NCBI RefSeq assembly: GCF_029265695.1
Contig: NZ_JAJUHW010000014.1
Location: 1-64,000 of the forward strand
Direction of reading: 5' to 3'
Length of the DNA: 64,000 nucleotides
Source: Gracilinema caldarium
GTDB taxonomy: Bacteria; Spirochaetota; Spirochaetia; Treponematales; Breznakiellaceae
Shown: positions 218 through 9,196 of the stretch, in pieces
Numbering within the stretch: the first letter of the stretch is position 1
Layout of the letters: each line of letters begins with the position of its first letter
Made by a program: the position numbers and the translations under genes
Notes under the pieces: generated by a model
What the model saw: only the letters and a program-made list of their open reading frames with translations
Databases searched by the model: none
Told to the model about the DNA's origin: nothing

Positions 218-786
218 ATGCAAAACTTTTTACCCTTTAGTGATAGGTGGGAAGAAATTGGTTTTCCGCCAAAAAAACCGGAAGCCTAGGAGTTTCCCTT
301 TTCGAATGTGTTCTACTTTTGGGAAGACAGAATAGAAGACATCAAAGCGAGTTCGGTACTCAGAGAGAAAACTAAAACAGGGGAAGAAATCACCTATGAC
401 GAAAACCAATTACGAAAAACATTTTATGGTGTTCACGATTCAACACTCAACATGAATACCTACAAACGGGCTTGGGCAGAGGGAGTGCCCGGGTCCGGTA
501 TCGGAGAGACCTTAGATATTGAGTTTACGCTGCCTGCGGACCATATGATGGTTCTTATAGTGAAATCAAGTTTCCCGAGAAAACCCGCAAGGTACGCTTT
601 ACGATAAAAGATATGTACAAGGGAACCAAGTATGATGACACCTGCATCACCGCCATATACTTAAAGCAGCAAAGCGAGTTCACGACCCACCCATACTTTG
701 AGATTGTCCCCCAGGACAGTAAAAAATACTATGAAGCCATAGAAATCGTAGAAAAACGATTAAGGGAAGCAGCGCTTATAAAATAA
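218..786 (+). pseudogene. Broken gene for a glycan-binding (NADase-type/discoidin-like) domain protein
   Basis: Three coding pieces join into one protein. An ATG at 218, behind a GGTGGAGA ribosome-binding site, opens a reading frame that stops at TAG 287-289. The same frame continues with FYFWEDRIEDIKASSVL and AWAEGVPGSGIGETLDIEF. Near 540-550 the frame must shift, after which it reads SYSEIKFPEKTRKVRFTI and ends at TAA 784-786. The pattern 'trp-x-GVxGSGIGE' followed by a beta-rich stretch resembles the NADase-type glycan-binding domains common in Treponema surface proteins. The product has no clear signal peptide, so the 5' part may also be lost. One stop and one frameshift in about 190 codons mean a decaying gene. 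It might instead be two short real genes, but I think that less likely. Confidence 0.6.
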
Positions 787-2230: not shown

Positions 2231-2255
2231 AAGCGGTATCCATGATATCGCTTTT
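2231..2255 (+). terminator. Weak hairpin after the HD-GYP gene
   Basis: AAGCGGTATC (2231-2240) and GATATCGCTT (2244-2253) pair over ten positions with one G-T wobble and a three-base loop. Only a short T run follows. It begins right after the stop codon, so it could be an inefficient intrinsic terminator. Confidence 0.35.
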
Positions 2256-2285
2256 ATAAAACTTCCTTTCCCTCATTGTACTCCC

Positions 2286-6441
<4,156 letters not shown>

Positions 6442-6475
6442 CTACATGCAGTTTCTCCGTTAGTATACATATCCT

Positions 6476-7480
6476 ATGGAAGCCGAATCTCAGAAGGCAA
6501 AGGAACTGGCCATACTTGGCATTCTCGACGAAAATGAGCGGCCCTTAAGCGGCGCTGATCTCGAAGCCCTGCTCAGGGACAAGGGCTATGAGCTGAGCGA
6601 ACGGACCATACGGCTGTATTTGCAGCGTTTTGACGCGGAGGGGCTCACTGAGTCATTAGGCAAGCAGGGACGAAAAATTACCGATAAGGGCCGCATGCGG
6701 CTCGACGAACAGCGCTTGATGCACCGGGTGGGTTATATGTCTGCCCGTATTGACCAAATGACCTATACCATGGACTTTGACCTCCCCAGGCGAAAGGGAA
6801 CGGTGGTCATCAATCTGGCTATCATTAAAAAGGATGATTTTCTTGCCTACCTCCCCATGGTAGAGCAGGTATTTGAGAAAGGTTACGCTATGGGAACCCT
6901 GGTAAGCCTCGTGGGTCCCGGTGAACGCATTGGTGCCTATGTAATACCGGATGGCCACATTGGCTTTTGCACAGTCTGTTCGGTAACCTTGAACGGTGTG
7001 TTTTTAAAATACGGCATTCCCACAAGGTCTCTTTTTAGTGGTCTTTTGCAGCTGGAGCAGGGGCAGGCTGTGCGTTTTGTGGAGCTTATCAGTTATGACG
7101 GCACCAGTATCGATCCCTTGCAGCTTTTTATCCGAGGTAAAATGACCGATTATTTAGGGGCCATTAAAAACGGCAACGGCAGGATCGGAGCGGGCTTCCG
7201 GGAAATCCCCGGCGAAAGCTACCAGCTTGCAGCGGACCTGGCTCGGCAGCTCCAGGACATAGGTCTCGGGGCCTTTCTTAAAATCGGCCGCCCTTCCCGG
7301 GACCTCCTCAATGTCCCGGTCCATGAAGGCTGCTGCGGCCTCATTGTTATCGGCGGCCTCAATCCTGTGGCGGTCTTTGAAGAGTCGGGTATTCCTGTAA
7401 GCTACAACGCCCTTGCGGGCTATATGGAATTTAACCGGCTCTTCCATTATTCCCAAATGCGGGAACGCCTCGGGTCGTAA
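6476..7480 (+). CDS. nrpR: NrpR-type transcriptional regulator (HTH plus NrpR/DUF128 domain)
   Basis: Residues 1-75 form a winged helix (LAILGILDENERPLSGADLE, then a recognition helix around SERTIRLYLQRF). Residues 80-320 form a single NrpR effector domain, recognisable from MDFDLPRRKGTVVINLAIIK, GYAMGTLVSLVGPGERIGAY, and the C-terminal GCCGLIVIGGLNPVAVFEESG. In methanogens NrpR represses nitrogen fixation and assimilation genes and lets go of DNA when 2-oxoglutarate rises. Some archaeal forms carry two effector domains; this one has one. The divergent gdhA and the palindromes between the genes strongly suggest that it regulates glutamate synthesis. The ATG at 6476 has no good ribosome-binding site, but the protein aligns from here. 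No nitrogenase genes are present in the window. Confidence 0.85.
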   Translation: MEAESQKAKELAILGILDENERPLSGADLEALLRDKGYELSERTIRLYLQRFDAEGLTESLGKQGRKITDKGRMRLDEQRLMHRVGYMSARIDQMTYTMDFDLPRRKGTVVINLAIIKKDDFLAYLPMVEQVFEKGYAMGTLVSLVGPGERIGAYVIPDGHIGFCTVCSVTLNGVFLKYGIPTRSLFSGLLQLEQGQAVRFVELISYDGTSIDPLQLFIRGKMTDYLGAIKNGNGRIGAGFREIPGESYQLAADLARQLQDIGLGAFLKIGRPSRDLLNVPVHEGCCGLIVIGGLNPVAVFEESGIPVSYNALAGYMEFNRLFHYSQMRERLGS

Positions 7481-7482
7481 CG

Positions 7483-8481
7483 TTACAACGCTGCCATCTG
7501 GGTTACCACGAAGGCGCCGTTCCCGAGCCAGGGGACCCAGGTGATGGAGGTGTACCCATCTCCTGCCGGTGTAGGCAGTACCGCCCCAGGAAAGAGCCAG
7601 GCATACTCGTTATAGGGCCAGAGCAGCGATCCATAGGAACTTAAAAGGGCAAAGCGGTCTTTGCCGAAACAGAAGCCTCTAAAGGTGGTATCAAGCTGGT
7701 TTGCGACCCCATAGAGGTCTTCCCAGGTGGAACCATCTGTGCTTGTGGCCACGTTGCCATACTGGTCCGCAATCATATAGAGGCCGTTGCCGTAGGTTAC
7801 GGCGACTATATTATTAGATATAGAATCACTCGCTGTAATTGGCCCTTCCCAGTTGCTGCCGTTGGTGCTGGTATAGAGGGTCCAGTTTATAGTACCCGCA
7901 AAGAAACGGCCGTTTGCAAAACTAATACTTGAAAAATTAGGAGCCTCTACTGGTGTTGTATCGGTCCAGGTTGCCCCCGAGTCACTGCTACTGAGTACAA
8001 GCCCGATGCTCGCTTGCCCCCATAAACCGACAGCAACAAAAACGCCATTGCCATAAGCTATGTCTGTTAAACTATGAGTATAGGTATGACTGCCCTCGGT
8101 AAGAGGACTCACATCTTCCCAGCTATTACCAGGATTGTTACTTCTAATAATGGTTCCAGAGTTCCCTGCTGCAACAAAGTAGCTGTTACCGTAAGAAACG
8201 CCGTTAAATTCCACGTTGGTTCCTGGATTTGTTTCAGGATTTATCCAGTCTCGTCCATCGGTGCTAACAAAAATAGTATCATTATAACCGACGGTTACGA
8301 GTGTGGTGCTGCTAAATGCGAGATCATTAGCAAAAAGTGAGTCCGGCAGAATCACCACAGGAACAGTCGCATCAATACCAGCGGCTCAGGTCGGGCCAGC
8401 AGGCCCCGCTGGTCCGGCGGGCAAAGAACAGGATGCAATAGAAAGCGCCACAGCGATGACAAGTAGTCCCCATTTTTTCAT
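7483..8481 (-). pseudogene. Lipoprotein with collagen-like stretch and beta-propeller repeats, interrupted by an in-frame TGA
   Basis: From ATG 8481 (GGGGAGGAT ribosome-binding site) the reading gives a lipoprotein signal peptide ending IASC with Cys18. Short G-x-y triplets (GPA GPA GPT) follow, then a TGA at 8386-8388, then AAGID in the same frame. The open frame continues for about 290 more codons without damage. The body has about six repeats of the form 'YGNGVFVAVG ... STDGSxW', typical of BNR/sialidase-like beta-propellers. The stop replaces the expected glycine of a collagen triplet (GGA to TGA), so a single base change explains it. It may be a recent nonsense mutation, a sequence error or a readthrough site. 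An internal restart near 8358 would make a protein without an export signal. The gene runs tail-to-tail with nrpR, 2 bases apart. Confidence 0.75.
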
Positions 8482-8586
8482 ATAATCCTCCCCTTTTTGA
8501 TACTATCCAGAGAGGAAGCTGATGTGTTACAGGGGATGCACAGGCCGGTGCACGTATAAGGACAGATCAATACTTATAGAAATAAC

Positions 8587-8617
8587 CTGCATTATATGCA
8601 GATTCGGATAATATCCG
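8587..8617. promoter_or_regulatory. Pair of adjacent palindromes upstream of the broken lipoprotein gene
   Basis: CTGCAT-TAT-ATGCAG (8587-8601) and CGGATA-A-TATCCG (8605-8617) are perfect inverted repeats three bases apart. On the minus strand the first contains TATAAT (8596 down to 8591), a candidate -10 box, about 105 bases upstream of the lipoprotein start. They look like protein-binding sites over a promoter. No known regulator is recognised. The rest of the 8482-8728 gap holds an AATAGATTA/TAATCTATT inverted repeat (8654-8680) and the terminator below. Confidence 0.35.
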
Positions 8618-8684
8618 TTACATAAAGTATAGCACATGATCTTATAAAAGCAAAATAGATTATAAAAAAAGTAATCTATTAGTT

Positions 8685-8721
8685 AAAAAAAAGGGGATGT
8701 CCTTAACTTATAGGACATCCC
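8685..8721 (-). terminator. Intrinsic terminator of the small outer-membrane protein gene
   Basis: GGGATGTCC (8694-8702) and GGACATCCC (8713-8721) form a perfect nine-pair stem with a ten-base loop. On the minus strand a run of eight T follows (8692 down to 8685). It lies just beyond the stop codon at 8729. The same stem sequence recurs in the terminator at 23917. Confidence 0.8.
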
Positions 8722-8728
8722 TTTTATT

Positions 8729-9196
8729 TTACAGACCTACCTGGGTCTTTATGCCAAAAAGAACAACACCGCCGTTCGCCACATCAAAAGCGCTTCCTGC
8801 ATTGGAAGTAGCAAGCCAGTCGAGGTAAATGGCCATTTTTGCAAATAAAGCCGATTTCTTTGCGAAAATGTCATAGTTAACACCGAGGCCAAAAGCAGGA
8901 GAATTACCCGGGATCGTGCCGGTATAGAGGGTAATGCCCAGTTTATCAAGAGGAATGACAGTAATATTCATAACGTTCACATTGGTGCCGGAAATGTTGC
9001 GGTATTTAAAGCCTCCAGTAAAGCTATCGTTAAATACATAATCAATTCCAAACTATGTTTCGCTGGATACGGTTTGGGTGTTTATGTTATATCCAGCGCC
9101 GGAACCGACGGTAAAGGTAAAATAGTCTGCTTTCTGCGCAAAGGCAGCAAATGCCAGACATCCGAAGAGGAAAACGCTGATTACCACTTTCTTCAT
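8729..9196 (-). pseudogene. Small exported beta-barrel-type protein interrupted by an in-frame TAG
   Basis: ATG 9196 follows AAGGAG at good spacing. The first 20 residues (MKKVVISVFLFGCLAFAAFA) are a clear signal peptide. The frame stops at TAG 9053-9055 after 47 codons, then continues in the same frame with FGIDYVFNDSFTGGFKYRN to a proper stop at 8729. Together the parts encode about 154 residues with alternating hydrophobic strands (KLGITLYTGTIPGNSPAFGLG, AKMAIYLDWLATSNAG), as expected of a small outer-membrane barrel. The reading frame is otherwise undamaged and has its own terminator. Like its neighbour at 7483-8481, it carries one nonsense codon only. No specific family is recognised. 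Confidence 0.7.

Follow-up and report, generated by a model that had tools for sequence, protein, structure and literature searches.

Two neighbouring envelope-protein genes, each with a single in-frame stop codon, in a tract of raised divergence in a Treponema-like spirochaete

Recently formed bacterial pseudogenes have been discussed previously (PMC13345370) and offer a comparison for genes interrupted by a single nonsense mutation, and in Treponema caldaria H1, 80 pseudogenes have been reported, corresponding to 2.73% of genes (PMC3739177). The two interrupted genes described here resemble such young nonsense pseudogenes (PMC13345370; PMC3739177) in having one lesion per gene, an intact orthologue in close relatives, a constrained codon pattern and intact translation signals, but they differ in that two adjacent genes are affected within one divergent tract and are known from a draft in 88 contigs. 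One of them is also similar to BNR/YCF48-like beta-propeller lipoproteins (DUF6242, PSII_BNR) in its Asp-box-like repeats and lipoprotein signal, whereas it carries a short collagen-like linker and its frame is interrupted. The tract around them shares with homologous allele replacement in close bacteria a sharp step in synonymous divergence, the retention of gene order and an edge inside a gene. In contrast to that process, the donor was not found among the genomes compared, and the left edge is hidden by the end of the sister genome's contig.

The window analysed comprised the opening 64,000 bases of contig C65, which belongs to a draft genome of 3.04 Mb (88 contigs, 95% complete). It was compared with members of the same genus: the complete Treponema caldaria genome (G001; single contig, 3,239,340 bp), the metagenome-assembled Treponema sp. 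M74 (G002), which is the nearest relative, and, as a third species, the metagenome-assembled Treponema sp. AS27yjCOA_205 (G003). The nearest relatives are metagenome-assembled. The features are listed in Table 1.

Table 1. Positions in the window of the interrupted genes and of the features around them.
Feature	Position	Strand	Evidence
Transposase orfA-like frame start, contig end	1..75	(-)	Near-identical sequence begins contig C88
Remnant of NADase_transloc/discoidin-domain protein gene	218..786	(+)	Domain matches; comparison with T. caldaria homologue
Raised-divergence tract relative to G002	2239..9104		Identity and dS comparison with G002
Lipoprotein (predicted beta-propeller) gene, single interruption	7483..8481	(-)	Reading frame; Pfam DUF6242 and PSII_BNR; intact G002 orthologue; Asp-box-like motifs
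In-frame TGA, codon 32 of 332, lipoprotein gene	8386..8388	(-)	Frame read; Gly codon in G002
Terminator-like hairpin after second gene	8684..8731	(-)	Sequence dispersed in window genome and G002
Small exported, probably outer-membrane protein gene (second gene), single interruption	8729..9196	(-)	Frame read; orthologues in G002 and G003 uninterrupted
In-frame TAG, codon 48 of 155, second gene	9053..9055	(-)	Leu or Ile codon in G002 and G003

The frame of the lipoprotein gene was read from the ATG at 8481-8479 to the stop at 7485-7483, and that of the second gene from the ATG at 9196-9194 to the stop at 8731-8729. Only one internal stop was present in each, the TGA at 8388-8386 and the TAG at 9055-9053, which confirmed the main claim of the earlier sequence-only reading, that two neighbouring genes are each broken once. 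The same reading held that the TGA replaces a collagen-triplet glycine, and the codon does occupy the glycine position of a Gly-X-Y triplet; the TAG sits in the short stretch where its protein varies most. That both frames are otherwise clean and furnished with proper signals was likewise borne out, with strong Shine-Dalgarno sequences (GGGGAGG and AAGGAG, respectively) 5' of the two genes, a signal peptide with a lipobox-like cysteine (...IASC) in the first product and a signal peptide ending AFA-Q in the second.

Behind its signal peptide and lipobox-like cysteine, the lipoprotein gene encodes a short collagen-like Gly-X-Y linker followed by BNR/YCF48-like repeats, and five Asp-box-like motifs were counted in its product. 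In the Pfam search, it matched DUF6242 with 33.4 bits (cut-off 29) and PSII_BNR with 27.1 bits (cut-off 27), both above the family cut-off, which places it in the BNR/YCF48-like propeller family. The product was therefore read as a predicted beta-propeller lipoprotein; the fold prediction for the intact orthologue (mean pLDDT 42) was too weak to confirm a propeller, and searching solved structures by sequence yielded no helpful match for it. The second gene had no family match in Pfam, and the prediction for its intact orthologue (mean pLDDT 30) was too low to give a barrel fold; from its sequence character, the product is probably an outer-membrane protein. The region upstream of the lipoprotein gene (8498-8586) is roughly 75 bases longer in the window than in G002, which makes the promoter regions different. 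The sequence of the hairpin that follows the second gene has more than a dozen matches each in the window genome and in G002.

In G002, both genes are intact, full length and side by side, collinear with the window, and the second gene is also intact in G003. Each gene of the window thus has a premature stop relative to an intact full-length orthologue, and because these orthologues are open over the whole length, both are interrupted genes and not chance open frames. Over the full frames, amino-acid identity to G002 was 83% for the lipoprotein gene and 88% for the second gene, in gap-free alignments. Substitutions fell mainly at third positions in both, and dN/dS relative to G002 was 0.175 and 0.099, respectively, against 0.02-0.08 in neighbouring genes. 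With G003 as the outgroup, the ratio of nonsynonymous to synonymous changes in the second gene was 13:25 on the branch of the window genome and 7:14 on that of G002, and such similar ratios speak against a long period of relaxation or neutral drift. Neither gene therefore carries a further lesion or more than little sign of relaxed selection, and it follows from this constrained codon evolution that the stops are either young or not real in cells. No copy of the lipoprotein gene was found in G003, neither gene occurs in the complete T. caldaria genome, and matches of any kind to the second gene were limited to 9 of 200 family genomes. Both genes are thus accessory and lineage-restricted, dispensable within the genus.

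Whether the stops are errors of the sequence was addressed with conserved genes of the complete relative, as a codon-usage scan for interrupted genes (839 kb) was too weak. Genes from 1.2 Mb of the T. caldaria genome were compared with 839 kb of the window genome, giving 169 testable genes and 62,608 codons, and no convincing in-frame stop was found in them. Stops flagged in these genes were set aside as extended N-termini, antisense shadow frames or stops near the C-terminus; the sole flagged exception was an apparent frameshift relative to T. caldaria in a DUF445-like membrane protein gene (contig C11, near 19,430). The 95% upper bound from zero events is about 5e-5 stops per codon, and the probability that uniform error produced two stops in these 487 codons is about 3e-4 or less. 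Uniform sequencing error is therefore improbable. In a reciprocal scan of the window against G002, no genes were clearly broken except the lipoprotein gene and the second gene; the remaining flagged frames were judged antisense shadows or ended no more than 3 residues from the C-terminus.

The comparison with G002 also placed both stops within a tract of raised divergence. Across the tract, identity was 77-92%, whereas beyond 9.1 kb most of the window was at about 95%, and dS was 0.47-0.77 in the five tract genes (a PPDK_N-type protein, glutamate dehydrogenase, an NrpR-like regulator, the lipoprotein gene and most of the second gene), in contrast to 0.07-0.38 in the 39 other genes compared, so that synonymous divergence is two to four times that elsewhere in the window. 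The right edge, which falls within the second gene at 9104-9128, is an abrupt step; the left edge is out of view, where the G002 contig ends. Of the 44 genes compared, 2 are broken and both lie in the five-gene tract, a clustering slightly above random scatter (about 0.01, calculated post hoc), which counts somewhat against two ordinary losses. Inside the tract, the window genome and G002 are still each other's closest, and therefore the segment either derives from a near relative or is a place where the assembly joined two strains; distances of the tract to G001 and G003 approach saturation and give no recipient genome. We infer that the step reflects recombination, i.e., an exchanged segment between close relatives, while the step itself fits a strain chimera as well as a recombinant. 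Within the tract (4957-7480), the glutamate dehydrogenase gene adjoins, and is divergent from, the NrpR-like nitrogen regulator (NRD1_2 and a winged helix), an arrangement that suggests local control of nitrogen assimilation. Elsewhere, the stretch at 48.6-55.5 kb has no match in G002 yet is present in G001 and G003, representing a draft gap or a deletion.

A local strain mixture is accordingly the main rival explanation, in which a mixture or locally low coverage produced an assembly or consensus artefact, the stops being either alleles of a minor strain or errors. The fragmented draft and the metagenome-assembled relatives would favour it, as would the position of the stops inside a tract whose divergence differs from that of its flanks and the repeated transposase sequence at which the contig begins. 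However, the two assemblies are collinear through the tract junction, the conserved genes yielded no stop at a rate that could account for two, and an origin in a minor strain would still mean that broken alleles exist. On balance, we regard an artefact as unlikely.

The sequence-only reading had further offered on/off variation between cells and readthrough as explanations, and neither was supported. In the former, the alleles would have been caught in an off state; both products are surface-type proteins, and intact alleles of relatives could in principle replace the broken ones by exchange. A phase-variable gene is recognised by a repeat tract, an invertible segment or another reversible element, but between 7400 and 9400 there were no tandem repeats or simple-sequence tracts, and no inverted pair or invertible segment except the terminator hairpin. 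A point nonsense mutation has no mechanism of rapid reversal and is not a usual switch, and we consider such switching highly unlikely. Programmed readthrough or recoding of the TGA and TAG, by which a little full-length product would be made, is extremely unlikely. The frames downstream of the stops do stay open and constrained, as readthrough would have it, but sister species have ordinary sense codons at both places, the TGA replaces glycine and not cysteine, and two different stop codons are involved. Moreover, no suppressor anticodon was present among the 42 of 45 tRNA matches that could be typed (3 were untyped), no tRNA-Sec scored above cut-off, no Rfam element was found, and the conserved genes compared elsewhere contained no convincing stop.

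The sequence-only reading also counted 218-786 as a third nonsense gene. This part was borne out only partly, as the stretch is a 5'-truncated remnant; in T. caldaria, its homologue is an open frame of 368 residues whose N-terminus is signal-like. Its two pieces correspond to the ends of the NADase_transloc/discoidin domain; relative to the homologue, it lacks the 5' part and is broken chiefly by an internal gap of roughly 124 nt with a frameshift near 556. The TAG at 287-289 precedes the stretch with detectable homology, which starts near 320, and so cannot be placed inside the gene. The remnant adjoins transposase-like sequence at the contig end, and it is older and more decayed, different in kind from the two nonsense genes and not to be counted with them. 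At positions 1-151, nearly the same sequence as that with the transposase orfA-like start begins contig C88 and occurs in contig C223 of G002.

Considering the above results, we propose that the two adjacent envelope-protein genes are likely to be recent loss-of-function alleles with one point nonsense mutation each, within an exchanged segment of about 7 kb. Recent loss, the remaining explanation of the sequence-only reading, agrees with the intact orthologues in the sister species, the lack of a second lesion, the constrained codons and the dispensable nature of the genes. Each gene would recently have gained its mutation and become a young pseudogene in the sequenced population, the stops being real in cells and the function presumably lost. 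Translation would end after 31 residues in the lipoprotein gene and 47 in the second gene, leaving a signal peptide and a short peptide, and neither gene has further downstream a start preceded by a ribosome-binding site from which an exported product could be regained. The two stops would lie in a segment whose ancestry is unlike that of its flanks and which has one of its edges in the second gene, derived from homologous exchange between close relatives, either in the window lineage or in its sister. More speculatively, and in our view very unlikely, the locus might be an exchange point for envelope-protein alleles among related Treponema-like spirochaetes, with recombination edges that separate the signal peptide from the mature domain, and with intact and broken alleles kept in the population as a slow on/off polymorphism.

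At the pseudogene rate of T. caldaria, one or two would be expected per 64-kb window and a few would be ordinary, and the loss of such accessory genes is therefore unsurprising. Recent loss of these two genes would thus be an ordinary case of an uncultured Treponema-like spirochaete losing accessory genes for envelope proteins, of little significance alone. The tract was visible only by comparison with G002 and not from the window sequence itself, and the comparison with the sister genome alters the picture of the interrupted genes. The locus is a mildly useful case in which stop codons in a draft genome are to be read alongside a divergence step, as a sign of recombination or strain mixture.
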